A stretch of 20,365 nucleotides of DNA from a virus, in the IMG/VR virus record IMGVR_UViG_3300031974_001744, positions 1 through 20,365 of that record. One strand, written 5' to 3'. The notes beneath the pieces were generated by a model. It had not been told where the DNA came from and made no database searches. It saw nothing but the letters and a program-made list of their open reading frames with translations. Made by a program: the position numbers and the translations under genes. Positions 4,185 through 18,866 of the stretch are shown here, piece after piece. The number at the start of each line of letters is the position of its first letter. Positions within the stretch are counted from its first letter, which is position 1.

Positions 4185-4602
4185 TTACGAACCACGAGAA
4201 GTTCAAAAGTATCAAGAGTTTACAAACTACAATGATATTAGTTCAGAACAAATACAAGTGATATCAGAGGAATTATCTGAATTTAAAGATTCGTTTGGGA
4301 AAGATTGGCAAGAGTGGAATTTAAAAGACCTACGAAGTAGATTAAAAGACAATTGGACATTTTATTTAACGGAGTGTGGTTGGGCATTTATAGATTGGAA
4401 TAGAAAATATCCTTATTTGTGTAATCGTTATGTAATTCCAGAACATAGAAATAAAGGATTAGGAAGTGATTTAGTATGGTTGAGGTGTAATGAAATCAAA
4501 CAACAAGGATACAATTACGCAATGATTAAGTTAGAGGATTGGAATACACCAGCAAAATCAGTTATGAAAGAAGATATTTTCACACAATTAAAGGATATTT
4601 GA
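4159..4602 (+). CDS. GNAT-family N-acetyltransferase
   Basis: The 147-residue protein has the GNAT acetyl-CoA pyrophosphate-binding motif A, RNKGLG (residues 97-102, RxxGxG), directly after the strand YVIPEH, and an upstream WAFIDW strand. The family acetylates amines of small molecules, sugars or protein termini. The ATG at 4159 lies 26 bases inside the SGNH hydrolase gene, an unusually long overlap here. No later in-frame ATG precedes the body of the domain, and the N-terminal part is less conserved-looking, so the true start is uncertain. The gene ends just before the ATATTTATA motif at 4602, where a new transcription unit may begin. Confidence 0.75.
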   Translation: MYYKIDLSNYEPREVQKYQEFTNYNDISSEQIQVISEELSEFKDSFGKDWQEWNLKDLRSRLKDNWTFYLTECGWAFIDWNRKYPYLCNRYVIPEHRNKGLGSDLVWLRCNEIKQQGYNYAMIKLEDWNTPAKSVMKEDIFTQLKDI

Positions 4603-4624: not shown

Positions 4625-6889
4625 ATGTCAGCAGAATCAAAAATAGAAAATTATTTAAATTATATCACCGGAAGTGCAGGTGGTTGGCCATCAAACACTA
4701 ATGTCGGTATCCTTGTGGGTATCGATTATTTCATAGAAACAGGTTCTAACAACATTTACTTTAGTGAAATGAACACTGCTTGTGGGGTTAGTGGTGAACT
4801 ATCAAGACAAGAAGATACTTTTGATAAGATTTCTGATTATGCAGTATCTCAAAGTTGCACAACAGCATACATTTATGGACGACACGATGAACAAAAACAC
4901 AATCCTTCTTCATTTCAAGAACCTATAATTAGTGCAAGTTTTGCAAGACACGGAATATCAGTTAATTTTGAATACAATGACGATATGTCACACACTTATT
5001 TCTCACAACGAGGTAGTGATGACTATACAGGTAGTTTCCACTTATTTATACAAGCACCTTGGTATAGTGATGATACATTATTCAACATCGTTAGTGGTTC
5101 ATTTAACAAAAGTTCTTTTAGAACCATTTTATCATCATCACCTGAAAGTGCAAGTTTAATACCATTATTTGATAAAGATAATTATACACCTAATACTAAC
5201 TTTCCAGATTATGTAATAAAACAACCAACAGCTCATTCAGCACTGGGAAGTGGTAATATAGGATTTAAAAAATATCAATCCGGAACCACTACTTATCAAG
5301 ACGCAATAGACAATGGTAACATAACTGAAAAGTTCATAGTATCAAGTGGTAGTTATGATGGCGAACAAGGACACTTACTTACGAATAAAAAATATTACTG
5401 GATAACACCAACGGAGATTATAAACGCAGGGCAAAATGTTGACCAAAGTTTGACAAATTCAAGTAAATTAATTATGTCGGGAAGTGAAACTTATTACCCA
5501 CAAGCAAGATTCATAAGAATAGTCGCAAGTGGAAGTTTAATCAATATGTTTGACGGTTCAACAAAACAAATTCAAGATGTAGAAGTTGGGGATGTCGTTA
5601 AATCATATCAACCATATGGAATGCCAGATGAGTCTGAAGGTATTGACTGGATAAATTACACAACCACAGATTTAAGTGGTTCATTTTCTTCTGGTTCTAT
5701 TGTTGTTGAGACATTAAATAAACAAAGTTATGGATATTATTTAATCAACGGAAGTATAAAAGTTCCTGCGGCTCCACACACTTTACACGGAGGTGGAAAA
5801 TTCTTTTGTAAAACAGGAGACACTTGGAACTGGAAACAATCAACTGATATATCAATAGGAGACTACTTTTTAAGCAGTGATGGTAGTGAGTTAGAAATTA
5901 CATCAAAAGTTGAGGTATTATCAGATGAAACATTTTACGGATTAAATGTTGAAGATATAGATACATATTTTCAATCAAATATATTAGTTCATAATTTACC
6001 ACCACTATGTTTTGTAGCAGGAACACCAATCACAATGGGAGATGGAACTAAAAAAGAAATAGAATTGATTAAAATTGGTGATGAAGTTAAAAATTATGAC
6101 TTTGATACCAAAGAAATTAAAATAGGTAAAGTATTATCGACTAAAAAACCAGTTAACAAATACATTGTAGAAATAAGTTTTGGTGATAAAAAAACAAAAA
6201 ACACATTCGACCACCCGTATTGGGTAGTTGGAAAAGGTTGGTCATCATATAAACCAGAGTGGACAGAAAAAAAATATAACATCAAATCCGAACAATTAGA
6301 AGTAGGAGATAAGTGTTTAGAACTTCAAGGTAATGAAATTGTAGAAACTAAAGTAACAAATATTCAAGAAGATATTAATCCAATACAAACTTATTCGTTA
6401 GAAATAGAAACACATAAAAATTATTTCGCTAACGATATGTTAGTTCACAACAAATCAAGTTTTTGTTTCACTTATGATACAATGATTACTTTATCAGACG
6501 GAACATATCAACCAATCATAAAAATTAGACCGGGTGATATGATAAAAACATATGATGTTGAGAATAATAAAATTCAGGACTCAAAAGTTTTAGAAGTCAT
6601 AAAGATAAGACACGATAATATAGTAACTTACACTTTTGATGACGACTCTACAATCACAGCAACAGATGACCACCCATTTTATATTGTCGGAGATTCTGAA
6701 GTAGATTCAGATTACAGACCACTAAAAATAGGAGATTTAGTTTTGACTGATGAATTAAATAAATTAAAAGTAGTTCATATAGAGGTTATAAATAAAGAAG
6801 AAATAACATACAATATTAATTCTACAAATAATGGTGTTAATTACTTTGCAAATAAGGTTTTAGTTTCTGATGAGTCTGATACAGAATAG
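4625..6889 (+). CDS. Large protein with three tandem C-terminal Hint (hedgehog/intein) domains
   Basis: The 754-residue protein has an N-terminal part (1-300) rich in Ser, Asn, Gly and aromatic residues, then three Hint-like domains. Hint 1 (about 302-457) begins SGSLINMFDG and ends NILVHN, with Ser in place of the starting Cys. Hint 2 (462-609) is the most canonical: CFVAGTPITMGDG start (Cys462), block-B-like TFDHPYWV with His530, and YFANDMLVHN end. Hint 3 (614-748) has CFTYDTMITLSDG (Cys614) and DDHPFYIV (His683), but ends VLVSDES with no His-Asn. Hint domains self-cleave or splice proteins. The residues after the two HN ends are Leu and Lys, not Cys/Ser/Thr, which argues against standard splicing and fits bacterial-intein-like cleavage or a purely structural use. 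A virion role for the N-terminal part is inferred. Confidence 0.85.
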   Translation: MSAESKIENYLNYITGSAGGWPSNTNVGILVGIDYFIETGSNNIYFSEMNTACGVSGELSRQEDTFDKISDYAVSQSCTTAYIYGRHDEQKHNPSSFQEPIISASFARHGISVNFEYNDDMSHTYFSQRGSDDYTGSFHLFIQAPWYSDDTLFNIVSGSFNKSSFRTILSSSPESASLIPLFDKDNYTPNTNFPDYVIKQPTAHSALGSGNIGFKKYQSGTTTYQDAIDNGNITEKFIVSSGSYDGEQGHLLTNKKYYWITPTEIINAGQNVDQSLTNSSKLIMSGSETYYPQARFIRIVASGSLINMFDGSTKQIQDVEVGDVVKSYQPYGMPDESEGIDWINYTTTDLSGSFSSGSIVVETLNKQSYGYYLINGSIKVPAAPHTLHGGGKFFCKTGDTWNWKQSTDISIGDYFLSSDGSELEITSKVEVLSDETFYGLNVEDIDTYFQSNILVHNLPPLCFVAGTPITMGDGTKKEIELIKIGDEVKNYDFDTKEIKIGKVLSTKKPVNKYIVEISFGDKKTKNTFDHPYWVVGKGWSSYKPEWTEKKYNIKSEQLEVGDKCLELQGNEIVETKVTNIQEDINPIQTYSLEIETHKNYFANDMLVHNKSSFCFTYDTMITLSDGTYQPIIKIRPGDMIKTYDVENNKIQDSKVLEVIKIRHDNIVTYTFDDDSTITATDDHPFYIVGDSEVDSDYRPLKIGDLVLTDELNKLKVVHIEVINKEEITYNINSTNNGVNYFANKVLVSDESDTE

Positions 6890-7496
6890 AGACTTCAAAT
6901 TTTCAATACAAATATCTACATTTTTATCACACGAAAAGTGTGATGAATTAATAGAACAAATAACCACAACAGAACAAATGGTTCCGGGCGCAGTTGGTAG
7001 TGAAAGAGGAGAAACAGCAATTATACCGGAAATAAGAGTAACGGAAGAGTGGTATTTATTTGACCAACCATATAATAAATATAGACCAGATAAATGTAAT
7101 GGGGATTGGAAATGGCTACAAGACAAAATATATCAGGTGGTTAAATTAGTAAATCAAGGTGTATTTCACTTTGATGTTGAGGGAGTAGGTGACGAATTAA
7201 AACTTATCAAATATCACCAAGGTGGATTTTATAGTTGGCATACAGACTTTAATGCGGGAGATAGTTCATTAAGAAAACTGACTGCGATTGTCCAATTAAC
7301 AGACCCGAGTGAATATGAGGGTGGAGATGTTCAGTTTGCTATCCAAGATAAACATACAAAAGAGTGGTATACAATAAATAAATTGAAAGGTTCACTAACA
7401 ATATTTCCAACATTTTTATCACACAGAGTAACACCAGTCACTAAAGGAACAAGATATGTATTACAAGAATTTTACACAGGAAACCATTTTAAATGA
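6870..7496 (+). CDS. 2OG-Fe(II) oxygenase (prolyl hydroxylase/PKHD-like), copy 1
   Basis: The 208-residue protein has the iron ligands His124 and Asp126 in YSWHTDF, distal His185 in FLSHRVTPV, and Arg195 in TKGTRYVL as the 2-oxoglutarate anchor. EYEGGDVQF (148-156) is the strand typical of P4H/PKHD-type enzymes. These hydroxylate protein side chains or small molecules using O2 and 2-oxoglutarate. The ATG lies 20 bases inside the Hint gene and the only upstream SD candidate is weak (AAGG at 6854-6857), so coupling to the Hint gene seems likely. Copy 2 follows immediately with a four-base overlap. A substrate among phage structural proteins, possibly the neighbouring Hint protein, is a guess from position. 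Confidence 0.9.
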   Translation: MSLIQNRDFKFSIQISTFLSHEKCDELIEQITTTEQMVPGAVGSERGETAIIPEIRVTEEWYLFDQPYNKYRPDKCNGDWKWLQDKIYQVVKLVNQGVFHFDVEGVGDELKLIKYHQGGFYSWHTDFNAGDSSLRKLTAIVQLTDPSEYEGGDVQFAIQDKHTKEWYTINKLKGSLTIFPTFLSHRVTPVTKGTRYVLQEFYTGNHFK

Positions 7497-8092
7497 AAGA
7501 AAATAATAAATTTAATTTTGTTTTACACAGGGAAAACTTTTTAACACCAGAGCAGTGTGATGAGTTGATTAGAAAATTTGAGGAATCAAAACCACAAAAA
7601 TCAGGAGTCGTTGGAACATATGAGGGTAGAGAAATAAATGAAAATGTCCGTAAAGTTCAAGAGGTTAGATTACAAAATGATGTTGTGTTGTCAGACGGAT
7701 TTAAGCTAACTAAGCATATTATTATGGCTTGTGAAATGGCAAACCTAATCAACTTTAATTTTGATTTAGAAAAACCATATAAATTAGAGGATATTGTATT
7801 GTTAAGATATGAGGATACTGACAAATATGATTGGCATTTAGACATTGGTAAAAATGAAACATCAGTTAGAAAGATATCAGCGATAATTCAATTAAGTGAT
7901 GAACAAGATTATGAGGGTGGAGATTTCGAATTTAGTATTACTAATAATGAAGGTGATGATAATTATTTTGGAACAAGAAAACGAGGTTCGTTAATATTGT
8001 TTCCTGCATTTTTAGGACATAGAGTTAGACCAGTAACGAGTGGTGTTAGATATTCAATTGTCACTTGGATTCTTGGAAACTCTTTTAAATAA
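7493..8092 (+). CDS. 2OG-Fe(II) oxygenase (prolyl hydroxylase/PKHD-like), copy 2
   Basis: This 199-residue paralogue of the preceding gene shares its architecture: FLTPEQCDELI near the N-terminus (FLSHEKCDELI in copy 1), iron ligands His115 and Asp117 in YDWHLDI, DYEGGDFEF (139-147), distal His176 in FLGHRVRPV and Arg186 for 2-oxoglutarate. All catalytic residues are kept, so it should be active. Divergence in the first half (residues 30-110) suggests different substrates. It starts at an ATGA overlap with copy 1. The pair probably arose by tandem duplication. It ends the accessory block; the next gene is gp62 behind a 54-base gap. Confidence 0.9.
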   Translation: MKENNKFNFVLHRENFLTPEQCDELIRKFEESKPQKSGVVGTYEGREINENVRKVQEVRLQNDVVLSDGFKLTKHIIMACEMANLINFNFDLEKPYKLEDIVLLRYEDTDKYDWHLDIGKNETSVRKISAIIQLSDEQDYEGGDFEFSITNNEGDDNYFGTRKRGSLILFPAFLGHRVRPVTSGVRYSIVTWILGNSFK

Positions 8093-8146: not shown

Positions 8147-8578
8147 ATGAAAACAAAAAGCTTATTCGACCATATAAAAGAAATTACAAATAATCAAAAC
8201 CCAAATTATTGGGAAGAGATTTCTGATGCCGATAAAAAAACATTCTCAAACTATATGGTGCATAGATTTCTATCAATGAAACCAGAGTGGATTGAAGTAG
8301 TGAACGAAATACAAAGATACTGGGAATTAGAACCTAAATCAGTTTATCAATTCTACACCAATGTAATTCCCAAAGGTAGAACATTTCTAAGATACACAAA
8401 ATCTAAGAAGAAATCCAAGATAGAAAGTTGGGCAATGGATATATTATGTGATTATTTTGAAGATAGTTCAGAAAATATTGAAAAAACACTTGACATTATG
8501 GGTAAAGATGTTGTATATTCAATCGTATCCAAATATGGTGTAGATGAAAAACAACTAAAAAAGATATGGAGTAAGTAA
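8147..8578 (+). CDS. 62: Clamp-loader small subunit (gp62-like)
   Basis: The 143-residue protein resembles T4-type gp62, the non-ATPase subunit that bridges the gp44 tetramer in the clamp loader. The features used are NYMVHRFLSMKPEW near residue 40 (T4 gp62 has DYSKFMVENALSQFPE), a central IPKGRTFLRYTK basic segment (T4 has VPRGKRYGKW), and a lysine-rich C-terminus with KKIW. T4 gp62 is 187 residues; shorter forms are usual in marine T4-like phages. It is separated from gp44 by a block of at least seven other genes. Its stop overlaps the following start (TAATG). gp62 evolves fast, so recognition rests on short stretches and on replication-gene context. Confidence 0.72.
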   Translation: MKTKSLFDHIKEITNNQNPNYWEEISDADKKTFSNYMVHRFLSMKPEWIEVVNEIQRYWELEPKSVYQFYTNVIPKGRTFLRYTKSKKKSKIESWAMDILCDYFEDSSENIEKTLDIMGKDVVYSIVSKYGVDEKQLKKIWSK

Positions 8579-8976
8579 TGATTAAAGACGCACCAACAAA
8601 AGTTATTGATGATGTCGGTCAAGAATATGACCCAACAGATGTTGTTGGATATATGGAAAACACATATCCTGAAATGACATCAGAATTTAAAAAGATTCAA
8701 CGAGACCAATATGAATTGTTTTGTAGAAAACAATATGATTATGGTCCACAAAATATAGCAGTAGGAACTATTCTAAAAACCAAAGAAGATATTAAATTAT
8801 CATTGTTAGGAATTTGGTTTCGAATGCAGGACAAAACAGAAAGATTAAAAACATTATTGATGAGAGAAACAAATACACCAGGTGTAGAAAACGAACCCAT
8901 AACTGATAGTTTTTCAGATGTATCAAATTACGGAGTAATGGCACAAGTAGTAGCGAGGGGTAAATGGGCAAAATAA
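8578..8976 (+). CDS. DUF1599 / nucleotide modification associated domain 1 (Nmad1) protein
   Basis: The 132-residue protein shows the DUF1599 pattern. KQYDYGPQNIAVG (about residues 51-63) is followed by the helix LSLLGIWFRMQDKTERLKTLL (about 74-94), and then SFSDVSNYGVMAQ (about 114-126). The family is widespread in phages and has been named for its association with nucleotide-modification genes; its biochemical activity is not settled. Here it lies between gp62 and a RecB/Cas4-like nuclease. Both ends overlap neighbouring genes (TAATG at the start, 13 bases at the end), so it is part of the same operon. Confidence 0.75.
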   Translation: MIKDAPTKVIDDVGQEYDPTDVVGYMENTYPEMTSEFKKIQRDQYELFCRKQYDYGPQNIAVGTILKTKEDIKLSLLGIWFRMQDKTERLKTLLMRETNTPGVENEPITDSFSDVSNYGVMAQVVARGKWAK

Positions 8977-9797
8977 GTTATAGTCAGTTCGCAATGTGGG
9001 ACAAATGTCCTTACACTTGGGAAGTAAATTATGTCAAGAAAGAAAAGACTTTCGTTGGTAATATTTACACCTTGTTTGGTAGTGCCATTCACGAAACTAT
9101 CCAAGCATATTTAGTATGTTATTATGAACGAACAATCAAAGAAGCAGATGAATTACCACTACACGATATTCTGATATATCGTATGAAAGAATTGTATAAA
9201 GAATCCAAAGAACAATATGGTGATGATTTTGAAGTTACAAAAGAAGAAATGTCAGAGTTCACACAAGACGGATTCGCAATCATTGATGAGTTCTTGAAAA
9301 GAAAGGGTAGTCATTTCAAAAAGAAAGATACTGAGTTAGTTGGTATCGAAATGAACCTAAACTATGAACTTCCAAAAGAAATGAAGTTTGTTGGGTTTAT
9401 GGATGTTGTTCTACACGACAAGAAAACTGGTCGTATGAAAATTGTTGATATCAAATCATCTACAATGGGTTGGAATAAATATATGAAAGCCGACAAGAAC
9501 AAAACTAATCAATTGTTATTGTATAAACACTTTATGGCAAAGCAATTAGAAATATCAGAAGATAAAATTGATGTTGAATATTTAATATTAAAGAGAAGAT
9601 TATATGAAAATATGATGTATCCACAAAAACGATTACAGGCATTCTCACCTGCGAGTGGAAAACCAAGTGTTAATAAGGTTATGACAAGACTACAAGAGTT
9701 CATAGACGAGTGTTATGATGACAAAGGTAAAGTCATTTCACACGACTATGAAAAATGTGAAAAACACAAAAAGTGTAGAAGTTGTAAGGATTTATAA
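8964..9797 (+). CDS. PD-(D/E)XK exonuclease, Cas4/RecB/AddB-nuclease-like, with four-cysteine cluster motif
   Basis: The 277-residue nuclease has the RecB/Cas4-type order: SYSQFAMWDKCPY at the N-terminus, GSAIHE with His43, GFMDVVL with Asp147, IVDIKSS with Asp162 and Lys164, then the QxxxY motif (Gln183, Tyr187). Cys15 with Cys265, Cys271 and Cys274 gives one cysteine before and three after the nuclease core, the arrangement that binds a 4Fe-4S cluster in Cas4 and AddB nucleases. It probably processes DNA ends in phage recombination or replication, or degrades host DNA. No helicase or CRISPR genes are adjacent. The strong purine run GAGGGG (8955-8960) precedes the ATG. Confidence 0.88.
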   Translation: MGKISYSQFAMWDKCPYTWEVNYVKKEKTFVGNIYTLFGSAIHETIQAYLVCYYERTIKEADELPLHDILIYRMKELYKESKEQYGDDFEVTKEEMSEFTQDGFAIIDEFLKRKGSHFKKKDTELVGIEMNLNYELPKEMKFVGFMDVVLHDKKTGRMKIVDIKSSTMGWNKYMKADKNKTNQLLLYKHFMAKQLEISEDKIDVEYLILKRRLYENMMYPQKRLQAFSPASGKPSVNKVMTRLQEFIDECYDDKGKVISHDYEKCEKHKKCRSCKDL

Positions 9798-10240
9798 TGA
9801 CAGAACCAAGTTTAAGATTAAAAGTAACGGATTTTTTAGCAACAGATTTCGAACAAGAAGTATTTCAAGAACTGATGAAGATAAAACAATTGGATTATTT
9901 TGAAGGTGCACCATTTCCATTATACTTTTGGTATGATAGAGAAAAAGAAATGGTAGATTTAAAAACTCTCGAACCATTTATCAAATATTGGAAAAATGAA
10001 AGTCAATTTAACACTAAAATAATTATTATTCCGGAGTTAACAGATGACCAAAATCATTTTATAATGTATGATATCAGACCAAAAAATTCTAAACAATTAC
10101 AATATTACAGATTTGCATACGAGTATGATAATCCAAGAGACATCATAACTGGATTAAAACATTTTGTAAAAACATACGAGTTCGTTAATAAAGAAGAACT
10201 TAATCCAGAACCAGTTAGAAAACAAAAACGAAACGACTAA
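9797..10240 (+). CDS. Conserved-looking protein of unknown function
   Basis: The 147-residue protein starts at a TAATG overlap with the nuclease stop and ends at another TAATG. It is rich in aromatic and charged residues and has an IIIIPEL strand about the middle, then a hydrophilic tail (VRKQKRND). I see no catalytic motif, signal peptide or membrane segment. Tight coupling on both sides suggests a real gene that works with the nuclease or the SLOG protein. I do not recognise the family. Confidence 0.7.
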   Translation: MTEPSLRLKVTDFLATDFEQEVFQELMKIKQLDYFEGAPFPLYFWYDREKEMVDLKTLEPFIKYWKNESQFNTKIIIIPELTDDQNHFIMYDIRPKNSKQLQYYRFAYEYDNPRDIITGLKHFVKTYEFVNKEELNPEPVRKQKRND

Positions 10241-10638
10241 TGAAGATAGCAGTTATCGGAAGTCGAACCTATACTAATAAAACTAAAATAAAGAACTTTA
10301 TGTTTCGACTAAAAATGGAATATCCAGAAGTAGAAATAGTTTCTGGTGGTGCCAAAGACGGAGCAGATAAATATGCAAAGAGGTTCGCATTAGAATTTAA
10401 AATACCTTATAGTGAGTTTCCACCACAACACCAACCACATAATATGTATTGTGTAATGGAACCATATAATTATGGGAAACCTTATGCAGCAGGTTATTAT
10501 CACAAACGAAACAAAGATTTGGTTAAATATTCTGACAAGGTTGTGGCATTTTGTAAAGACGGAGTTATTACCAAAGGAACAAAATCGGCATTAGAATATT
10601 GTGAGAAAATTGAAAAAAAATATGTCATTTTAGACTAA
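10240..10638 (+). CDS. SLOG-domain protein (DUF2493/YspA-like)
   Basis: The 132-residue protein has the Rossmann-like SLOG signature: MKIAVIGSRTYTN at the N-terminus, IVSGGAKDGADKYA (about residues 33-46), then RNKDLVKYSDKVVAF (about 91-105) and a TKGTKSAL segment. These features match the YspA/DUF2493 branch, which is thought to bind nucleotide-derived ligands and is common in phages. The specific ligand or reaction is unknown. It is the last gene before a 24-base gap carrying the ATATTTATA motif. Confidence 0.82.
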   Translation: MKIAVIGSRTYTNKTKIKNFMFRLKMEYPEVEIVSGGAKDGADKYAKRFALEFKIPYSEFPPQHQPHNMYCVMEPYNYGKPYAAGYYHKRNKDLVKYSDKVVAFCKDGVITKGTKSALEYCEKIEKKYVILD

Positions 10639-10662: not shown

Positions 10663-10857
10663 ATGAAAGAAGAAAAGTTAACATCAGTAAAAGTCATTGA
10701 CGAGTTATATAGAAAGTTCAGAGAAAAATCTATTCGTGATGACTTCTCACTTCAAAAGTTAGTCAATCGTAGTATTGATTTATTCGTCCACGACGAGGAT
10801 TTCGCCAAGACTATTTTAGAATATGATAACTTAGAAGAATCGGGTTCAAAATATTAA
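10663..10857 (+). CDS. Small ribbon-helix-helix-like protein (possible regulator)
   Basis: The 64-residue protein begins with a short strand candidate, LTSVKVIDEL, followed by helices around YRKFREKSIRD and SLQKLVNRSIDLFVHD. This strand-helix-helix layout and spacing resemble CopG/Arc-type ribbon-helix-helix DNA-binding proteins, which dimerise through the strand and bind operators. It opens a transcription group just upstream of the glycan cluster and has no SD. It may regulate that cluster or itself, but this is inferred from position. The family call is moderate because the fold is short and variable. Confidence 0.6.
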   Translation: MKEEKLTSVKVIDELYRKFREKSIRDDFSLQKLVNRSIDLFVHDEDFAKTILEYDNLEESGSKY

Positions 10858-10866: not shown

Positions 10867-12297
10867 ATGAGTTTACCAAAATTAAAAAAGGTTTCAGAAG
10901 TCAAAAAAAGAGATAAGAAAAAAATCTTATTATTATCAGATGATTTAAGAATGTCCAGTGGTGTCGGAACAATGTCAAGAGAAATTGTAATGGGAACACT
11001 CGATAAATATGATTGGGTTCAAGTCGGAGGAGCAATCAAACACCCAGACAAAGGTAAAATATTTGATATGTGTGATTCAATGAAAGAAGAAACAGGAGTT
11101 GAAGATGCTTATCTAAAGATTTATCCGGTGGACGGATACGGAAGTCCAGAATTAGTTCGTGAGTTAATCCAAATAGAAAAACCAGACGCCATTATGATTT
11201 ACACAGACCCAAGATTTTGGATTTGGTTATTTCAAATGGAACACGAAATCAGACAACACATACCGATTTTTTATTATAATATCTGGGACGATTTACCTTA
11301 TCCAATGTGGAACGAACCTTATTATGAAAGTTGTGATTTGATTATGAATATTTCTAAACAAACACACAACATTGTGCAAAATGTTTGTCAAAATAAACCA
11401 AGAACAGATTGGGACTCAACTTACATTCCACACGGAATAAATGAAAAATACTTTTATCCAATCAATGATGATAAAGAAAGATTAGAAATGAACAAAATGA
11501 AATCAGAGATATTTCAAGGAAGAGATATGGAATTTTGTTTATTCTACAACAACAGAAATATCAGAAGAAAAATGACTTCCGATACGATTATGGCATTTAG
11601 GGAGTTTGCATACAGACTACCAAAAGAAAAAAGAGATAAAGTCGCATATGTTCTACATACACAACCAGTAGACAATAACGGAACAGACTTACCGGCAGTG
11701 GTTCAAGAAATGTGTCCAGATTTGAATATTATATTTTCAACAAATAAATTATCAAATCAACATTTAAACTATCTATATAATATTGCCGATGTAACGATTA
11801 ATTTAGCAAGTAATGAAGGATTTGGATTGGGAACTTGTGAATCATTAATGTCAGGAACACCAATCATCGTAAATGTTACAGGTGGATTACAAGACCAATG
11901 TGGATTTAGATTGAGTGATGAATTATTAACTTACAAAGATTATGCAGATATTGAATCACTACACGATTGGAGAAAGTGGGAAAACAATAAATCACTAACT
12001 CACGGAGAGTGGGTAAAACCAGTATGGCCAAAAGTTCGTTCATTACAAGGTTCACCACCAACACCATATATTTTTGATGATAGATGTGATTGGGTTGACG
12101 CATCATATTCAATAGAACACTTCTATAATATGTCAAAAGAAGAAAGAAAAGAGTGTGGATTTAAAGGACACGAGTTCGTAACCGGTGATGACGCAATGAT
12201 GTCAACCAGACATATGAGTCAATTATTCATAGACCATATGGAAACGGCATTTGAAAAATGGACACCAAGAGAAAGGTATGAGGTATTAGAAGTATGA
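10867..12297 (+). CDS. Glycosyltransferase, GT4-type (GT-B fold), first of the cluster
   Basis: The 476-residue protein has an N-terminal Rossmann start (KILLLSDDLRMSSGVGTMSREI), the glycine loop used by GT-B enzymes. A C-terminal nucleotide-sugar site carries the E-x7-E motif, Glu317 to Glu325 in NEGFGLGTCESLMSGTP, and a TGG turn. Retaining GT4 enzymes move a sugar from a nucleotide-sugar donor onto a glycan, lipid or protein. AAAGAGG at 10856-10862 is the ribosome-binding site. It overlaps the next GT4 gene by four bases (ATGA). The long C-terminus (about 380-476) contains Trp-rich sequence not typical of the core. Donor and acceptor are unknown. Confidence 0.87.
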   Translation: MSLPKLKKVSEVKKRDKKKILLLSDDLRMSSGVGTMSREIVMGTLDKYDWVQVGGAIKHPDKGKIFDMCDSMKEETGVEDAYLKIYPVDGYGSPELVRELIQIEKPDAIMIYTDPRFWIWLFQMEHEIRQHIPIFYYNIWDDLPYPMWNEPYYESCDLIMNISKQTHNIVQNVCQNKPRTDWDSTYIPHGINEKYFYPINDDKERLEMNKMKSEIFQGRDMEFCLFYNNRNIRRKMTSDTIMAFREFAYRLPKEKRDKVAYVLHTQPVDNNGTDLPAVVQEMCPDLNIIFSTNKLSNQHLNYLYNIADVTINLASNEGFGLGTCESLMSGTPIIVNVTGGLQDQCGFRLSDELLTYKDYADIESLHDWRKWENNKSLTHGEWVKPVWPKVRSLQGSPPTPYIFDDRCDWVDASYSIEHFYNMSKEERKECGFKGHEFVTGDDAMMSTRHMSQLFIDHMETAFEKWTPRERYEVLEV

Positions 12298-13586
12298 GTA
12301 AACCATTAGTATTAGTAACGGCACCAGTTCAAACTCGTAGTGGATACGGAAACCACGCAAGAGATATTTGTAGAGCATTAATCGAATCAGATAAATATGA
12401 TGTTAGAATACAATCAGTTCGTTGGGGTTCAACACCTATGAATGCTTTGGAAAAAGATAATTTAAGTCATCAGGAAATTTCTAAAAGAATTTTAAAGAGT
12501 CCTAATGTTGAAAGACAACCAGACTTACATTTACACATTGTAATTCCTAATGAGTTTCAATCAATAGCCAAAAAGAATATCGGTATGACAGCAGGTATTG
12601 AACATACACTTCCACCAGCAGATTGGGTAGAGGGTTGTAATCGTATGGACAAAGTCATATTTACATCAGAATTTTCAAAAGAGAGTTTTGAAAAAATAGA
12701 ATATAATAAACACGATAAACAAACCGGAAACCCAATGGGTAAGTTAAAGACTGAAAAACCTATGGAAGTTCTATTTGAGGGTGTTGATGAAAATACCTAT
12801 AAACAAACAAGTGAAATTTCAGATAACTTAGAGAAACAATTCTCAAAAATAAAAGAGGACTTTTGTTATTTATTCGTAGGACATTGGTTACAAGGTAATC
12901 TCGGTGAAGATAGAAAAGACATCGGTATGATGTTGAAAACATTTTTTGAAACATTTAAGAATCAAAAAGACCAACCAGCACTAATACTAAAAACAAGTAG
13001 TGCTTCATTTTCTATTATGGATAGAAAAGAAATTAAAGATAAAATAAATATGGTTAGAAGTTCTATACAAGCAGAAAAACTACCAAGTGTATATTTAATT
13101 CACGGAGAGTTAACTGATGATGAAATGAATCAAATGTATAATCACCCAAAGGTGAAAGCACATTTAACCTTTACTCACGGAGAGGGATTTGGAAGACCAT
13201 TGTTAGAAGCATCATTTAGTGGTAAACCAATTATCGCACCAATATCAACAGGTCAAGCAGATTTCTTGGATAAAGAATACACAATTGAACTACCACACCA
13301 AATGACATCAGTTCCAAGAACAGCGTTCCCAGAAAAATATGTAATGGGAGAACCAAAGTGGTCAACCGTAATATATGGACAATCAATCGGTATAATTAAA
13401 GATGTTTATAAGAATTACAAAAAATATGAACTTCGTGGTAAAAAACAAATGATAGTTAATAGAGATAATTTTAATTTTGAAAAAATGAAAGAAAAGTTGG
13501 TGCTTATAATAGAGGATACACTAAAAGACATTCCAATAAATGTTCCATTAACATTACCTAAACTACCTAAAAGGGATAAAAAATAA
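12294..13586 (+). CDS. Glycosyltransferase, GT4-type (GT-B fold), second of the cluster
   Basis: The 430-residue protein has the same layout as its upstream neighbour: SGYGNHARDICRAL near the N-terminus and the E-x7-E donor motif, Glu297 to Glu305 in HGEGFGRPLLEASFSGKP. LFVGHW (193-198) is the strand opening the second Rossmann domain. Sequence similarity to the first GT4 seems limited to these motifs, so they likely transfer different sugars or act in sequence. It starts at an ATGA overlap and is followed directly, without a gap, by the next gene. It may act in the cytoplasm on phage protein or host envelope precursors; this is not decided by sequence. Confidence 0.87.
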   Translation: MSKPLVLVTAPVQTRSGYGNHARDICRALIESDKYDVRIQSVRWGSTPMNALEKDNLSHQEISKRILKSPNVERQPDLHLHIVIPNEFQSIAKKNIGMTAGIEHTLPPADWVEGCNRMDKVIFTSEFSKESFEKIEYNKHDKQTGNPMGKLKTEKPMEVLFEGVDENTYKQTSEISDNLEKQFSKIKEDFCYLFVGHWLQGNLGEDRKDIGMMLKTFFETFKNQKDQPALILKTSSASFSIMDRKEIKDKINMVRSSIQAEKLPSVYLIHGELTDDEMNQMYNHPKVKAHLTFTHGEGFGRPLLEASFSGKPIIAPISTGQADFLDKEYTIELPHQMTSVPRTAFPEKYVMGEPKWSTVIYGQSIGIIKDVYKNYKKYELRGKKQMIVNRDNFNFEKMKEKLVLIIEDTLKDIPINVPLTLPKLPKRDKK

Positions 13587-14042
13587 ATGGCAGAAATAAA
13601 AATAACTTGTCCTAATTGTTTAAATGATAGTCAATGTTTTGAAGAGGACTTAAATCAAATAGAAAACTTTAAATCTTATATGTGTTTTAATTGTGGATTT
13701 ACAAGTAATAGTTCATTTACAGAAAATTCAAATACACTTAAAGAGTTATTATCAAAATCTACTCAATTAGTTAGGGATGTTTCATTGTTTGATTATGATA
13801 GAAAAATAACTTGGTTTCCAACAACATTGAATATGGGTAAATTTGGAATAATATATCCAGAAGGAACAAAAACAAATTGGAATTGGAAATTAGCAGAAGT
13901 TCGTAAATTAACACCAGAAGAACAAAAAGACCCAAAATACGAAGGACACGAACATACATTAGATACAGAAAATGCAAAAGAATATGGACAATATGAGTTT
14001 TTAGATGCGTGTAAAGAAATGGGAATCATTAGAGACGTATGA
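13587..14042 (+). CDS. Unknown protein with N-terminal zinc-ribbon-like cysteines
   Basis: The 151-residue protein begins with ITCPNC (about residues 6-11) and has a second pair in YMCFNCGF (about 31-38), giving CxxC-x(~22)-CxxC as in small zinc ribbons. The rest is aromatic-rich (KITWFPTTLNMGKFG, TNWNWKLAEV) and acidic, with no motif I know. It begins at the base after the second GT4 stop and overlaps the next gene by four bases. Its role in or beside the glycan cluster is unknown. Confidence 0.7.
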   Translation: MAEIKITCPNCLNDSQCFEEDLNQIENFKSYMCFNCGFTSNSSFTENSNTLKELLSKSTQLVRDVSLFDYDRKITWFPTTLNMGKFGIIYPEGTKTNWNWKLAEVRKLTPEEQKDPKYEGHEHTLDTENAKEYGQYEFLDACKEMGIIRDV

Positions 14043-14536
14043 AGAATACAAGTTGGCAACAAATACAACCAGGTCAAATAGTTAAGTTTATTTATAAAAG
14101 TAAAAATAGTAGTAGGGGAATCCAAAGAACCGTATTGATTATTGACCCAAAGTATAAATATAGAAAAAAATCAACAGGTAGGTCAGTAGACTTCGTTGTA
14201 GGATTACAATTAGATACACTATTATCTGCACCAATCAATGTTAGAAGTTTTAATAAACTGATTTCTCAATTTGGTGGGTTGTTTGATGATGAGGGAGTTA
14301 TTGAAGTTGGAAATCAACCAAATAGAACAGATGCTCAAAGAACCGAAGATATTTATAAAACTCTTGAAAGATTTTTACAAAGAAACGATGTATTCAGAAC
14401 TTTCTTTTTGAGAGAATGTAGAAAACGAAGAGTATTTTTATTAGATAGTTATAAAAGGTTTCCTAAAAAGTCATTAGACAATTTACAATTAAGAAAAAGA
14501 CTTGAACAAACATTAAAAAAGATTGAGGAGTTTTAA
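14039..14536 (+). CDS. Unknown protein with SH3-like N-terminal strand pattern
   Basis: The 165-residue protein opens with IQPGQIVKFIYKSKN (about residues 9-23) and RTVLIIDPKY (about 30-39), alternating hydrophobic strands that resemble a small beta-barrel. The second half is very basic and helical (LQRNDVFRTFFLRECRKRR, KKSLDNLQLRKRLEQTLKK). The net positive charge suggests nucleic-acid or protein binding. It overlaps both neighbours (ATGA, TAATG). I do not recognise the family and cannot tell whether it belongs to glycan synthesis or is a structural or replication accessory. Confidence 0.65.
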   Translation: MKNTSWQQIQPGQIVKFIYKSKNSSRGIQRTVLIIDPKYKYRKKSTGRSVDFVVGLQLDTLLSAPINVRSFNKLISQFGGLFDDEGVIEVGNQPNRTDAQRTEDIYKTLERFLQRNDVFRTFFLRECRKRRVFLLDSYKRFPKKSLDNLQLRKRLEQTLKKIEEF

Positions 14537-15195
14537 TGAAACTTAGTTATAGTATTACTTGTTACAATGAACATAAAGAATTAGATAACTTATTATTTCA
14601 TTTATCTAAACACATCAGAGAAGAAGATGAAGTAGTAATCACAAGAGATATTTCAAAAGTCGGAGAAAAAAGTATTGTTCAAGATGACTTTTATGCATTA
14701 GAAAAGGTATTGGAAAAATATGAGTATAATTCTTATTTTAAAAATCTAAAAATAAATGTATTTCACTTTAATAAAGACTTTTCAGCATTAAAGAATTATG
14801 CAAAATCACAATGTTCAGGTGATTATATTTTTTCTATTGACGCAGATGAAATACCAAATGAAATACTTCTACAACAATTACCAACAATATTAGAAATCAA
14901 TGATACGGATTTAGTATGGGTTCCAAGAATTAATATTGTTGATGGTATTACATCTTGGCATTTAGAACATTGGCATTGGAGACAAACTGAACAAGGTTGG
15001 ATTAACTTTCCAGATTATCAGGCAAGAATATTTAGAAACACAGATAATATTAAGTGGGTTAGAGAAGTTCACGAAGTAATAGACGGAGCAAAGACATACT
15101 CACATCTACCACCACACGAAGAATTAACTTTACTACATAAAAAAGATATAACCAGACAAGAACAACAAAATAGATTATACGACACGATTATTTAG
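14536..15195 (+). CDS. Glycosyltransferase family 2 (GT-A), WaaE/KdtX-like
   Basis: The 219-residue protein shows the GT2 start LSYSITCYNEHKEL and, further on, DFSALKNYAKSQCSGDYIFS (81-100) leading into the DxD metal and donor site IDADE (Asp102, Asp104). The HWHWRQ and YQARIFRN segments are typical of the WaaE-like branch of GT2, which adds sugars to lipopolysaccharide core or similar acceptors. The C-terminal TRQEQQNRLYDTII is also characteristic of that branch. The start overlaps the previous stop (TAATG). There is no membrane segment, so it is a cytosolic enzyme. The acceptor is unknown. Confidence 0.87.
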   Translation: MKLSYSITCYNEHKELDNLLFHLSKHIREEDEVVITRDISKVGEKSIVQDDFYALEKVLEKYEYNSYFKNLKINVFHFNKDFSALKNYAKSQCSGDYIFSIDADEIPNEILLQQLPTILEINDTDLVWVPRINIVDGITSWHLEHWHWRQTEQGWINFPDYQARIFRNTDNIKWVREVHEVIDGAKTYSHLPPHEELTLLHKKDITRQEQQNRLYDTII

Positions 15196-15205
15196 GAGAT
15201 AATGG

Positions 15206-16108
15206 ATGCCATTTCATTATAGTAAGAGTATTATGGAACAAGGAAAACAAATGAATATATTAGTAACAGGTGGAGCAGGATTCGTAGGAACGAATTTAAT
15301 TAAAAGGTTATTAAAAGACGGACACAATGTTGTATCGTTGGACAATTATTCAACAGGTAAAAAAGAAAATGAACAGGAAGGTTGCACATATTTTGATGTA
15401 GACATTAGAGATATTGTAGATTTTAGTTATTTTATGGAGAAACCAGATGTTGTGTATCATTTAGGAGCACTAGCAAGAATCCAACCATCATTTGAAAATC
15501 CAGCCAATACATTAGAAGTTGGAATCTTAGGAACGATGAATATCTTGGAGTGGGTAAGAGAATTAGAAAATAAACCAAGAATGATATTCGCAGGTTCATC
15601 ATCAGTTCATAGTGGTATGATGAAAAATCCATACACCTTTTCAAAAAGTGTAGCAGACGATATGTGTTTATTGTATAAAAAACATTTTGGAGTAGAAGTA
15701 TCGATTTGTAGATTTTATAATGTATATGGGCCACATCAATTAACCGAAGGAGAATATTGCACGGTAGTTGGTGTATTTGAAAGACAATATAAAAACGAAG
15801 AACCATTAACCATTACAGGAGACGGATTCCAAAGACGAGATTTTACTCACATTGATGATATTGTGGACGGATTAATTTTAACATCTGAAAACGAAACTTG
15901 TTGGGACGAAATAGAATTAGGTAGAGGAAATAATTACTCAATCAATGAGTTGGCCGATATGTTTAACACAGAAATTAAATACATTGATGCAAGACCAGGA
16001 GAGGCGAGAGAAACTCTTTGTAATACTTTGATAGCAAAAAGATTAATAGGATATGAACCAAAGGTAAATATAGAAGATTATATTGAGGATATAGTAAATG
16101 GAAGATAA
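15206..16108 (+). CDS. NAD-dependent epimerase/dehydratase (extended SDR, UDP-sugar epimerase-like)
   Basis: This enzyme interconverts or dehydrates nucleotide sugars and would supply donors to the neighbouring glycosyltransferases. Visible are NILVTGGAGFVG (GxxGxxG, residues 17-28), SSSVHSG (131-137), the catalytic YxxxK (Tyr143, Lys147) and a C-terminal RRDFTHIDDIVDG segment, all as in GalE/RmlB-type SDRs. Two starts are plausible. ATG 15206 has AGGAG at 15194-15198 (spacer 7) but gives 15 extra residues before the Rossmann strand. ATG 15251 has AAGGA at 15240-15244 (spacer 6) and gives a typical N-terminus. I keep 15206 because it fits the tight operon; 15251 is a real alternative. Confidence 0.9.
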   Translation: MPFHYSKSIMEQGKQMNILVTGGAGFVGTNLIKRLLKDGHNVVSLDNYSTGKKENEQEGCTYFDVDIRDIVDFSYFMEKPDVVYHLGALARIQPSFENPANTLEVGILGTMNILEWVRELENKPRMIFAGSSSVHSGMMKNPYTFSKSVADDMCLLYKKHFGVEVSICRFYNVYGPHQLTEGEYCTVVGVFERQYKNEEPLTITGDGFQRRDFTHIDDIVDGLILTSENETCWDEIELGRGNNYSINELADMFNTEIKYIDARPGEARETLCNTLIAKRLIGYEPKVNIEDYIEDIVNGR

Positions 16109-16736
16109 ATTTTTCAGAGGAACTAATATTCAAGAGAGGTGGGAGAAAAAACATAGAGAAGAATATAAAATAGACCAACCATATGATTTTTCTAAGTTTA
16201 CCAGTGGTGAGATGAATGAATATCAGGAGGTTGCTGCTAAACTATTGGAAGAAAATAAAGACGCATTTTCAATGAACACTTTACACGAATTAGGTTGTGC
16301 TGGTGGTGATTTTGTTTCTTATGTAAAAAATTATGTTTTACAGGATTGGGAAATAAGTGCAGAAGACTTCTCAAAAGATGCCATAGAATCTGCAAAAAAA
16401 AGAGAACCTAATGTTAATTTTTTTCAAAATGATTTTTTACTAAATAGAATCAATAAAGACTATGGTTGTATTTGTATGTTTGAAACAATTGAACATATTC
16501 AAGAGGGAACAAACTATGAAATTTTAGAAAACTCATTAAATCACTCTGAATATACTATTGTTACAACTGTTGATACAGAAGACGATTGTTTCGGTGAACA
16601 TATTTCACATTATAAAATTGATACTTTTGACAAAAAAGGTTACGATGTAGTTTGGAAAAGTTTTCTTAAAGAAATATATATGCCAAATGGGGTTTATCAT
16701 TATATGATATTCTTATTAAAAGGAAAGTTAAATTGA
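16098..16736 (+). CDS. SAM-dependent methyltransferase, class I
   Basis: The 212-residue protein has motif I HELGCAGGDF (residues 63-72, with Ala in a position often Gly). A following ISAEDFSKDAIESAKKR segment carries the SAM ribose-binding acidic residue and helix. FETIEHIQEG (post II) is typical of ubiE/small-molecule and sugar methyltransferases. It sits inside the glycan cluster, so O-methylation of a sugar is a reasonable guess. The start at 16098 has GAGGA at 16085-16089 (spacer 8) and lies 11 bases inside the epimerase gene. It overlaps the next gene's TTG start. Confidence 0.82.
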   Translation: MEDKFFRGTNIQERWEKKHREEYKIDQPYDFSKFTSGEMNEYQEVAAKLLEENKDAFSMNTLHELGCAGGDFVSYVKNYVLQDWEISAEDFSKDAIESAKKREPNVNFFQNDFLLNRINKDYGCICMFETIEHIQEGTNYEILENSLNHSEYTIVTTVDTEDDCFGEHISHYKIDTFDKKGYDVVWKSFLKEIYMPNGVYHYMIFLLKGKLN

Positions 16737-17653
16737 AAGTAATATTTTTTAGTGAATCAAATATCAAAGGTAAAGTAGATAGACTATTCCCTAATCAACG
16801 AACGGAGTTCAGTTGGAGTTTGATGCTGGATGCTGAATGGTGTCCATTAAATGATTCACCGACAGAAAGATATGATTTGGGAATTGTAATTATACCGAAA
16901 AACAATCCAAAAGTTGACTTGAACAAATACAAACTATATTGTGAAAATGTAGCAGTTATGCAAGAGGGGCCACATTGGTATTATCAAGATTATTCAGTAG
17001 AGAATCAAATACATTATTTAAATTGTTTACGAGAAGCAGATTGGGTATATTGTCATAATATGTCAGACATTAGATATTACAAAGGATTGGGTTGTAAAGA
17101 TGTAAGAGTAATGAGAAGTATGATGATTCCAGAGGGACTAAAAAGTCAAGAGTTCAATACACAGAAAAATGGAATTTTATTAGGTGGTAATTTTGTTTCT
17201 TGGTATGGTGGTATGGATAGTTATTTAGTGGCATCAGAAGTTAATGAACAATTATATGGTGTTTCAATGGGTAGAAAACAAGAACAAGAAGAAATGATTG
17301 AGGATATCAAATATCTACCTTATATGAGTTGGAGAGATTGGATAAATCATATTGGACAATATAAAGTTGGAGTTCACTTGATGAGAACACACGCAGCAGG
17401 AACATTTAGTATGAATATGAGTTTTCATCATTCGCCGGTAATCGGATACGAGGGACTTGATACTCAAGAATTACTACACCCACAAACTACCGTTCAAGTT
17501 GGAGATTTAGTAAGTGCAAGACGAATACTAAGAAAATTATACGAAGATAAGTTTTTCTACGAAGAATGTTCAGAACAGACAGGTAGACGATTTAAAAAGT
17601 ATTTTTCAGAAGATGCTTGGTTAGAACATTGGGAGAAAACAAATGTCAGATGA
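16733..17653 (+). CDS. Glycosyltransferase-like protein (GT-B-like), TTG start
   Basis: The 306-residue protein has a short N-terminal strand (MKVIFFSES) and a second-half region with KVGVHLMRTHAAGTFSMN (about 211-228) and HHSPVIGYEGLD, which read like the donor-binding half of GT-B glycosyltransferases. No E-x7-E is evident. The start codon is TTG at 16733, overlapping the methyltransferase stop as TTGA. It is supported by AGGA at 16721-16724 (spacer 8), and no ATG lies nearby in frame. Its place between a methyltransferase and a GT2 supports a glycan role; the family assignment is tentative. Confidence 0.65.
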   Translation: MKVIFFSESNIKGKVDRLFPNQRTEFSWSLMLDAEWCPLNDSPTERYDLGIVIIPKNNPKVDLNKYKLYCENVAVMQEGPHWYYQDYSVENQIHYLNCLREADWVYCHNMSDIRYYKGLGCKDVRVMRSMMIPEGLKSQEFNTQKNGILLGGNFVSWYGGMDSYLVASEVNEQLYGVSMGRKQEQEEMIEDIKYLPYMSWRDWINHIGQYKVGVHLMRTHAAGTFSMNMSFHHSPVIGYEGLDTQELLHPQTTVQVGDLVSARRILRKLYEDKFFYEECSEQTGRRFKKYFSEDAWLEHWEKTNVR

Positions 17654-18866
17654 AAGATTGATTAGTTTTATAATCCCTTCAAGAAGCAACTTGAAGTATT
17701 TAAAATGGAGTTATGCAAGTTTAAGAAAACACATTGGATATAGACACGAGATATGTTATGCTGATGACGCATCCACCGACGGAACTTGGGAGTGGTTACA
17801 AGAAATCGCAGAAAAAGATGGACGAGTAAAAATTCACAGAAACGAAGGCCCAACAAGATTAGGACACACCATACTATACGATACATTGATAAATGATTAC
17901 TCGACCAATGATATTGTGATGATAGCACACGCAGATATGTATATTATGCCAAACTTCGACGAAGAAATATTAAAACATATCAAACCAGGTGTGGTTGTGA
18001 GTGGAACAAGAATAGAACCACCGTTGCATCCAGAGGGGCCGGAAAAGATTATACAAGATTTCGGAATAGAACCAGAAGAATTTCAAGAACACGAACTATT
18101 GAGTTGGTTTAATCGTTATGAACCAGAACAAGAAACCACCGAGGGAATATTCGCACCTTGGGCAATCTACAAAGAAGATTTTCAAAAAATAGGTGGACAC
18201 GACCCATTGTTCGCACCACAATCAAAAGAGGATAGTGATATTTTCAATAGATTCATATTAAATGGATATAAAATAGTTCAAACACGACGAGGTTGTGTAT
18301 ATCATATGACTTGTCGTGGTTCAAGATTTGCAGATGGAGCAAAACGAAATCCAGACGGACAAGTGTTTATGAAAAATAGAGAAACAGATGAGTGGTTAAA
18401 ACAAAATGAACGCTCAACAAGAAACTTTATTAGAAAATGGGGAACAATGGTTCAACACGACCAATTACTGAAACCAATTGTATCGCCAGTTTATGATATT
18501 GGATTTGAATTAACTGAGGCAGCAGATGTCAACTTGATTAGAGCATTAGAACCTTGGTGTGGTTATATGGTAGTTCCAGCGGCAGAGGAGATTGAACAAT
18601 ATATTAAAGAAGAACAACCAAACACAGATTATCAATTGGATAAAAAATTACATACAGACTTACCAGGTATTCCAATGTATGATATTAGAGTTAGATTTAA
18701 TCCTTGGAAACTAACTCAACAAAGTTTCAACATAATACAAAAATTACCAGACATCATCAAAGATAGTGGTGAAGAAGGACAAGAATTCGAATTAGATATA
18801 TTCGAAATATCCATAGACAAAATGACAGAACATCAAGAGGACAATATAGTATGCAATTCAAATTAG
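17643..18866 (+). CDS. Glycosyltransferase family 2 (GT-A) with long C-terminal extension
   Basis: The 407-residue protein has the GT2 N-terminus ISFIIPSRSNLKYL, the nucleotide-binding YADDASTDGTWEW (39-51) and a DxD-like AHADMYIMP (Asp98 with Ala/His before it, a variant site). IGGHDPLFAPQSKEDSD (about 187-203) contains the acceptor-side ED region common in GT2. Residues after about 280 do not look like GT2 and may bind the acceptor or mediate oligomerisation. GGGAG at 17631-17635 (spacer 7) supports the ATG at 17643. The gene overlaps its neighbours by 11 bases upstream and 16 bases downstream. Confidence 0.85.
   Translation: MSDERLISFIIPSRSNLKYLKWSYASLRKHIGYRHEICYADDASTDGTWEWLQEIAEKDGRVKIHRNEGPTRLGHTILYDTLINDYSTNDIVMIAHADMYIMPNFDEEILKHIKPGVVVSGTRIEPPLHPEGPEKIIQDFGIEPEEFQEHELLSWFNRYEPEQETTEGIFAPWAIYKEDFQKIGGHDPLFAPQSKEDSDIFNRFILNGYKIVQTRRGCVYHMTCRGSRFADGAKRNPDGQVFMKNRETDEWLKQNERSTRNFIRKWGTMVQHDQLLKPIVSPVYDIGFELTEAADVNLIRALEPWCGYMVVPAAEEIEQYIKEEQPNTDYQLDKKLHTDLPGIPMYDIRVRFNPWKLTQQSFNIIQKLPDIIKDSGEEGQEFELDIFEISIDKMTEHQEDNIVCNSN

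Follow-up and report, generated by a model that had tools for sequence, protein, structure and literature searches.

A 20,365-nt stretch of viral DNA (the window) contains an eight-kilobase cluster of glycan-synthesis genes whose main feature is invisible from one window. Glycosyltransferases with intact GT4 and GT2 motifs form a fixed skeleton, conserved in order and in position beside T4-like replication genes, while the genes between its ends are swapped from relative to relative. We favour, at barely better than even confidence, a reading in which the cluster serves a T4-like lineage as a core module and glycosylates a phage-encoded protein in the cytoplasm, probably one in the virion, in a manner resembling that of the chlorovirus capsid. 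The data suggest that in these phages one self-encoded protein carries a coat of changeable sugar.

A nine-gene cluster in a T4-like replication neighbourhood

Positions 10867-18866 are filled by nine open reading frames (ORFs) on the same strand, in the order GT4, GT4, Zn-finger-like protein, unknown, GT2, NDP-sugar epimerase/dehydratase, methyltransferase, GT-B enzyme, GT2. The glycan-synthesis cluster that a first-pass annotation had proposed here is thus real, and it is not a chance arrangement because the gene order recurs in other contigs. That annotation overlooked two of the ORFs (13587-14042, Zn-finger-like; 14039-14536, unknown) and gave overlaps of 1-16 bases, which needs correction: the eight internal junctions comprise six overlaps (4, 4, 1, 11, 4 and 11 bases), one abutting pair and one 10-base gap, so the overlaps range from 1 to 11 bases and none is of 16. 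Promoter-like sites number 65 against 54.6 expected, and terminator-like sites 4 against 3.3. The T4-like character claimed for the surroundings is also well founded, as the sliding clamp and the large and small clamp loader subunits match phrog_223, phrog_168 and phrog_225. The features are listed below with homologue counts among 256 loci; these loci, some of which overlap as pieces of a single contig, were found via similarity to genes of the window, so the prevalences are valid for close relatives only.

597-2257, + strand: sliding clamp and clamp loader large subunit (phrog_223, 1.3e-6; phrog_168, 5.7e-88)
6870-8092: two tandem 2OG-Fe(II) oxygenases
8147-8578, + strand: clamp loader small subunit, gp62-like (phrog_225, 5.2e-18)
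8578-8976: weak match to DUF1599, 'nucleotide modification associated domain 1' (E 0.0049, below cut-off; homologues in 103/256 loci)
8964-9797, + strand: PD-(D/E)XK nuclease, marking the conserved position from upstream (PF12705, 6.2e-15)
10663-10857, + strand: h64, small ribbon-helix-helix-like protein directly before the cluster (best-hit homologue in 142/256 loci)
10867-12297, + strand: GT4a, GT4-type glycosyltransferase, skeleton (phrog_2170, 3.1e-23; EGFGLGTCE motif; homologue in 186/256 loci)
12294-13586, + strand: GT4b, GT4-type glycosyltransferase, skeleton (phrog_2170, 5.8e-19; EGFGRPLLE; homologue in 181/256 loci)
13587-14042, + strand: ZnF151, small protein whose N-terminus has a Zn-finger-like Cys motif (homologue in 131/256 loci; 31-sequence alignment)
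14039-14536, + strand: h165, protein without a family match (homologue in 62/256 loci)
14536-15195, + strand: GT2a, GT-A fold GT2 glycosyltransferase, skeleton (PF00535, 5.6e-11; DADE motif)
15206-16108, + strand: NAD-dependent nucleotide-sugar epimerase/dehydratase (PF01370, 1.5e-45)
16098-16736, + strand: class I SAM methyltransferase, accessory (Methyltransf_25, 1.5e-5, below cut-off)
16733-17653, + strand: GTx, predicted GT-B fold glycosyltransferase, TTG start (model pLDDT 93.1; homologue in 62/256 loci)
17643-18866, + strand: GT2b, GT2 glycosyltransferase, distal border of the cluster (PF00535, 1.3e-14; homologue in 96/256 loci)

The epimerase probably starts near 15251 and not at 15206, because its homologue in locus L002 (282 aa) begins 9 bases past the GT2 gene there.

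A constant skeleton around an exchanged interior

Many viral contigs from the environment have the arrangement GT4-GT4-(ZnF)-GT2 next to the same replication genes, and so do two isolates, Flavobacterium phage immuto and Microcystis phage Mel-JY01. Among the 80 nearest relatives of the nuclease, GT4a lies downstream in all 54 with at least 2 kb of DNA, GT4b in 44 of the 44 with 3.5 kb and GT2a in each of the 28 with 5 kb. Skeleton distances track replication-gene distances, with Mantel r values against the nuclease of 0.909 (GT4a), 0.825 (GT4b) and 0.764 (GT2a), the clamp loader giving a yardstick of 0.944. ZnF151 is usually a member of the skeleton.

Between the first and last GT2 the genes vary, in some relatives taking in nonulosonic-acid and sialyltransferase-like genes. 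The 138 interior ORFs from 22 loci fall into 82 families; these loci come from 27 with both ends (L071, L122, L138, L187 and L211 were dropped as copies), and some of their GT2b assignments are weak, at about 22% identity (e.g. L010, L013). When the analysis was repeated with stricter limits on 12 loci, the fraction of interior genes in common was 0.69, 0.22, 0.15 and 0.02 across falling bands of GT4a identity. A family scan covered 114 of 131 non-redundant interior ORFs, with 17 short or doubtful ones excluded (one minus-strand), and among the families listed, which are the 25 commonest of 69 and of 110, it found 10 epimerases, 5 DegT, 3 CTP transferase and 2 NeuB proteins. A homologue of the window's methyltransferase is the best assignment in just 1 of the 256 loci, so the oligosaccharide methylation that had been read from the window is not a constant property, and this gene is one of the swappable accessories. 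With its nucleotide-sugar genes, several glycosyltransferases, conserved borders and variable interior, the locus shows the pattern of an O-antigen or capsule locus.

We also considered a large insert in GT4b, as some matches (e.g. L066, L085, L090) spanned about 1.8 kb against 1.3 kb. The uninterrupted GT4b genes of L066 (432 aa) and L090 (435 aa) ruled this out, and Rfam returned nothing in L066, L085, L090 or the window; the longer span would arise from joining with the adjacent GT4a.

Identities of the enzymes

The classes assigned at first pass (two GT4, two GT2, a GT-B-like protein, an epimerase and a SAM methyltransferase) agree with Pfam, PHROG, motifs and fold, and the set of enzymes is, as had been claimed, sufficient for an oligosaccharide. 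GT4a and GT4b match PF00534 at 6.5e-6 and 3.7e-5, just below the curated cut-off, and both have the E-x7-E motif. The closest solved relative of GT4a is the glycosyltransferase B736L (3oy2, 4.4e-12; next relative 3e-6), which we take to be a chlorovirus enzyme. GTx has no Pfam, PHROG or NCBIfam match at E 0.01 and lacks the GT4 E-x7-E motif (41-sequence alignment); its AlphaFold2 model (mean pLDDT 93.1) matches PDB GT-B glycosyltransferases (best E 2.6e-11), and a GT-B fold is confidently predicted. GT2b has a C-terminal extension that is conserved in its alignment. The methyltransferase has a SAM methyltransferase fold with its best Pfam match (1.5e-5) below cut-off, and for the epimerase/dehydratase no NCBIfam equivalog above cut-off names the substrate. 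Searches gave no match for ZnF151 in Pfam or PHROG, nor for h165 in Pfam, PHROG or NCBIfam; h165 is confined to part of the relatives. A strand-helix-helix pattern, judged by eye, is conserved in h64 and suggests a possible regulator; Pfam RHH_10 reached just E 0.034 in 5 of 20 members, which is not significant, and another family reached 0.015.

The DADE motif of GT2a is present in all 142 homologues. The top six Foldseek rows for its model (pLDDT 93.7) are SunS/ThuS peptide S-glycosyltransferases, and the best match in a profile search is GmaR (22ao, 1.8e-11), a PDB name that we take to denote the flagellin glycosyltransferase. GT2a is a candidate priming enzyme, but fold does not fix the acceptor. 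Its Z-scores with ThuS and SunS (17.9 and 17.0) are slightly above those with WrtF (16.6) and TarS (16.5), at identities of 16-17%. WrtF and TarS act on glycans or teichoic acid and fall within about 1.5 Z of ThuS/SunS.

The probable acceptor

The first-pass annotation held the product more likely to be a 'virion or envelope' glycan than modified DNA. The second half of this claim stands, with DNA an unlikely target (PF09198 in 0/17 records), and the first can be narrowed, with a phage-encoded acceptor favoured. None of 17 records, most of them possibly incomplete, yielded the flippase Wzx (PF01943), Wzy/WaaL (PF04932) or the initiating transferase (PF02397), while 13, 9 and 9 of 14 control genomes, respectively, were positive. 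Proteins of the 22 loci have at most one hydrophobic segment each, and in immuto and Mel-JY01 the sole ORF with at least eight is the immuto tape measure, both scans having lacked a known flippase as positive control; the locus enzymes are soluble and include no multi-span membrane protein. Because the skeleton is common to phages of Bacteroidota and cyanobacteria and no lipid-carrier machinery was found in these records, we favour an acceptor encoded by the phage, which is also the simpler solution given that the envelopes of Flavobacterium and Microcystis differ. GT2a would attach the first sugar to a side chain of the Ser/Thr/Cys type, GT4a and GT4b would lengthen a common stem, and outer sugars would come from the GT-B enzyme and GT2b, with the epimerase providing an NDP-sugar and the methyltransferase decorating a sugar. 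Swaps of interior genes would then alter the outer sugars, like serotype genes, and the stem would stay constant since the acceptor belongs to the phage itself. Several observations count against this reading: the cluster lies amid replication and not structural genes, the ThuS/SunS match of GT2a barely exceeds those to WrtF and TarS, and Mel-JY01 has a split GT4a and yielded no good GT2b homologue. It is further weakened in that soluble glycosyltransferases could modify host lipid-linked sugars and borrow the host flippase.

The last point leads to the main rival, in which the enzymes of the cluster remodel the envelope glycan of the infected cell (LPS or capsule), for example to block superinfection, via the lipid carrier, flippase and ligase of the host. 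The variable sugar genes counted above are of the kind found in surface-polysaccharide loci, and O-antigen glycosyltransferases are often soluble. Such a role is proposed for pelagimyophage glycosyltransferases (PMC7029224). We nevertheless consider it less likely: Flavobacterium and cyanobacterium phages have the same skeleton while their host acceptors should differ, the flippase, polymerase/ligase and initiating enzyme turned up in none of the 17 records, the skeleton tracks the replication genes, and a virulent phage would gain little from such remodelling late in infection. It is less plausible again that the target is a non-virion protein (host or phage regulatory), glycosylated as an intracellular step of takeover or defence. 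The similarity of GT2a to peptide and protein glycosyltransferases and the location amid replication genes would suit such a step, but the fast-changing interior would fit selection outside the cell and not an internal switch.

Glycosylation of phage DNA is, in our view, very improbable. The idea was prompted by the position amid replication genes, the weak DUF1599 match and the tandem 2OG-Fe(II) oxygenases, and it draws further support from an MRSND stretch that two proteins of the thymidylate-synthase family (in L264 and L265) have in common with T4 gp42; both retain Asn at the site of the gp42 Asp. Its probability was lowered by several results. The DNA glucosyltransferase family PF09198 is in 0/17 records, with T4 as positive control at E 1e-99, and in neither immuto nor Mel-JY01. 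For a pyrimidine hydroxymethylase of the thymidylate-synthase family the results are mixed: PF00303 occurs in 10 of 20 records, the complete Mel-JY01 record has no thymidylate-synthase/hydroxymethylase homologue in a search that recovers T4 td and gene 42, and six of eight proteins examined resemble plain thymidylate synthase, two being ambiguous. Moreover, immuto bears its own 7-deazaguanine DNA-modification genes instead (DpdA and QueC/D/E/F), and nonulosonic-acid genes are present in interiors, such sugars being, to our knowledge, not known on DNA. Tet_JBP (PF12851) was in 0/17 records, with its control likewise positive nowhere.

If, as we prefer, the product sits on a phage protein in the virion, tailed phages would gain a surface identity that can be exchanged, with effects on host range, immune recognition and phage competition that are testable in the isolate immuto. 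A more tentative extension, to which we give only limited credence, is a widespread T4-like lineage with phage 'serotypes', in which a vertically inherited, position-fixed, virion-glycosylating stem bears tip genes exchanged by recombination, some for nonulosonic (sialic/pseudaminic-like) acids. Were this true, the particle would display a bacterial-type surface sugar.

Relationship to known systems

The usual classification of phage glycosyltransferases is as auxiliary 'moron' genes or as enzymes that modify DNA. In this locus the glycosyltransferase skeleton behaves as core genes do, while what lies between its ends varies in the manner of an O-antigen locus. Among the papers listed, our literature search found no description of the locus, no paper on immuto itself and no mention of Mel-JY01. 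Both isolates (immuto, MW353176; Mel-JY01, PP395634) have the same GT4-GT4-(ZnF)-GT2 genes beside the PD-(D/E)XK nuclease, at about 36-50% protein identity. The last GT2 is also found in immuto (45.7% identity), whose interior differs, being annotated as aminotransferase (two), mannosyltransferase, pilin-glycosylation-like and epimerase, whereas Mel-JY01 differs in lacking ZnF and a close GT2b and in having GT4a in two ORFs. With Wzx/Wzy-type loci the cluster shares sugar genes, several glycosyltransferases, conserved borders and a variable interior, but the flippase, polymerase/ligase and initiating transferase were found in 0/17 records. Pelagimyophages and cyanomyophages are T4-like and have LPS-type glycosyltransferases in a variable island; these lie mostly in the structural region, between VrlC and gp14 (PMC7029224), whereas the skeleton described here is beside replication genes. 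In Moraphages, a large lineage of aquatic phages, putative glycosyltransferases make up four of the core orthologue groups; the part of the report concerned describes neither their gene order nor a swapped interior (PMC12619734). Mycobacteriophage virion proteins bear glycans built with phage glycosyltransferases (Freeman 2023, as cited in PMC12619734). A parallel in mechanism may be the chlorovirus capsid glycan (PBCV-1), which is made by virus-encoded soluble enzymes without the ER or secretory pathway, some of its sugars being conserved across all chloroviruses (PMC7019647). That system differs in belonging to a eukaryotic virus, in being N-linked and in having a known acceptor; the only sequence link is the single GT4 match of GT4a to B736L.

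Layout and enzyme content of the cluster

The virus record spans the window exactly (20365 bases), and nine plus-strand ORFs fill 10867-18866. Family searches bear out the enzyme calls of the first-pass annotation (two GT4-type and two GT2 glycosyltransferases, a nucleotide-sugar epimerase/dehydratase and a SAM methyltransferase), which had, however, overlooked two ORFs, ZnF and h165. It had also described tight packing with overlaps of 1-16 bases; six junctions do overlap (by 4, 4, 1, 11, 4 and 11 bases), none by 16, while one abuts and one has a 10-base gap. The protein that it called GT-B-like has no match in family searches, but the fold supports the assignment: an AlphaFold2 model built from 41 homologues (mean pLDDT 93.1) resembles GT-B glycosyltransferases, with 364 chains at E <=0.001 and the strongest match at 2.6e-11. 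The consensus of these homologues lacks the GT4 E-x7-E motif. The proposed T4-like replication neighbourhood is likewise present, with a clamp and the large and small clamp loader subunits.

Homologues among 256 related loci (best-hit assignment; overlapping contigs counted)
GT4a, GT4-type glycosyltransferase: 186/256
GT4b, GT4-type glycosyltransferase: 181/256
Nuclease, PD-(D/E)XK, upstream marker: 173/256
GT2a, GT2 glycosyltransferase: 152/256
h64, small ribbon-helix-helix-like protein: 142/256
13587-14042, +, ZnF: 131/256
Epimerase: 119/256
GT2b, GT2 glycosyltransferase: 96/256
16733-17653, +, enzyme of predicted GT-B fold: 62/256
14039-14536, +, h165: 62/256
Methyltransferase: 1/256

Elsewhere in the window, a SLOG-family (YspA-like) protein lies immediately upstream of the cluster (10240-10638; homologues in 117/256 loci). 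A sulfotransferase (2496-2996; phrog_3347, galactose-3-O-sulfotransferase, 8.3e-17) and a GNAT acetyltransferase (4159-4602) are possible further glycan decorators. A 754-aa protein (4625-6889; homologues in 37/256 loci) carries several Hint/intein-like modules (AXH 1.9e-22, Intein_splicing, PT-HINT) and is possibly a self-cleaving phage protein.

A fixed skeleton and a variable interior

Loci with both ends share the order h64-GT4a-GT4b-(ZnF)-(h165)-GT2a-interior-GT2b. The DADE motif is intact in 142/142 GT2a proteins and E-x7-E in 167/167 GT4b ORFs tallied. In phage Mel-JY01, GT4a occupies two ORFs (190 and 302 aa; L013 10498-11989), either a true split or a sequencing error. A check anchored on the nuclease, and so independent of the glycosyltransferases, retained 80 of 177 confirmed loci (74-96% identity); the skeleton's position is fixed among close relatives, because GT4a follows the nuclease in 54/54 loci that extend >=2 kb beyond it, GT4b does so in 44/44 with 3.5 kb and GT2a in 28/28 with 5 kb. 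Pairwise protein distances between loci correlate with nuclease distances for GT4a (r 0.909, 155 loci), ZnF (0.902, 99), GT4b (0.825, 136) and GT2a (0.764, 102), against a yardstick of 0.944 (155 loci) for two replication genes (999 permutations, p 0.001 for every correlation). The drop from GT4a to GT2a, which lies nearer the changing interior, would fit recombination there.

That interior is diverse, with 82 families among 138 non-skeleton ORFs in 22 both-ended loci. In a stricter comparison of 12 loci, the share of common interior genes was 0.69 at >=75% GT4a identity (7 pairs), 0.22 at 60-75% (13), 0.15 at 50-60% (16) and 0.02 below 50% (30); the window shares only 0.50 with L002 and 0.36 with L021 despite ~80% GT4a identity. 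Among the Pfam matches listed for 114 interior proteins are epimerase (10), DegT aminotransferase (5), GT29 sialyltransferase (3), cytidylyltransferase (3), FkbM methyltransferase (3), GNAT (3) and NeuB (2); the NCBIfam matches listed include putative PseC (5) and PseF (4), counted irrespective of cut-off. Matches of this kind make nonulosonic acid synthesis plausible in some relatives; no such gene is present in the window.

A search of 50,697 phage records found relatives of GT4a in 10, of GT4b in 5 (four of Flavobacterium phage immuto, plus Mel-JY01) and of GT2b in 4, all from immuto; for the GT-B enzyme there was no relative. The families are common in IMG/VR, where profile scans confirmed at least 595 GT4a, 591 GT4b and 325 GT2b relatives, the best 80 of each being carried forward. 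All 11 loci from 84,980 species genomes lie on MAG-titled contigs, and may be viral contigs inside bins.

The likely acceptor

Regarding DNA as the target, PF09198 matched 0/17 records, with the T4 control positive. PF00303 occurs in 10/20 records and is absent from the complete Mel-JY01 record, in a search that recovers both T4 members. Six of eight thymidylate-synthase-family proteins read have the plain thymidylate-synthase motif; those of L264 and L265 have MRSND as in T4 gp42, yet Asn at the discriminating site, and are possible dUMP hydroxymethylases. Tet_JBP (PF12851) matched 0/17 records, with no hit in the control set either. The immuto record (L287 18607-36971) is annotated with a 7-deazaguanine set (QueC, QueD, QueE, FolE, DpdA, QueF). 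The window also encodes two tandem 2OG-Fe(II) oxygenases (6870-8092; phrog_61) and a protein with a weak, sub-cut-off match (0.0049) to DUF1599, 'nucleotide modification associated domain 1' (8578-8976; homologues in 103/256 loci). For an envelope glycan, Wzx, Wzy/WaaL and an initiating transferase were sought in 17 records and none was found, with positive controls, although host machinery may be used instead; the only ORF with >=8 hydrophobic segments in immuto and Mel-JY01 is the immuto tape measure.

The best PDB profile match of GT2a is GmaR (1.8e-11), ahead of chondroitin synthase (1.1e-8). Its model (pLDDT 93.7) has SunS and ThuS as its first six Foldseek rows, with VIA-align Z of 17.9 for ThuS, 17.0 for SunS, 16.6 for WrtF and 16.5 for TarS. 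The best solved relative of GT4a is B736L, a chlorovirus protein. Reasoning from enzyme class to acceptor, we judge it slightly more probable than an even chance that the cluster glycosylates a protein of the phage itself, with a virion protein the most likely. We favour this because a stem that stays constant in phages of unrelated hosts is combined with a changing tip, an absence of lipid-carrier machinery from the records searched and a GT2a resembling peptide glycosyltransferases. The chlorovirus capsid glycan, with conserved and variable sugars (PMC7019647), is a working precedent; among the closest phage descriptions are the variable glycosyltransferase islands of pelagimyophages (PMC7029224) and the core glycosyltransferases of moraphages (PMC12619734).
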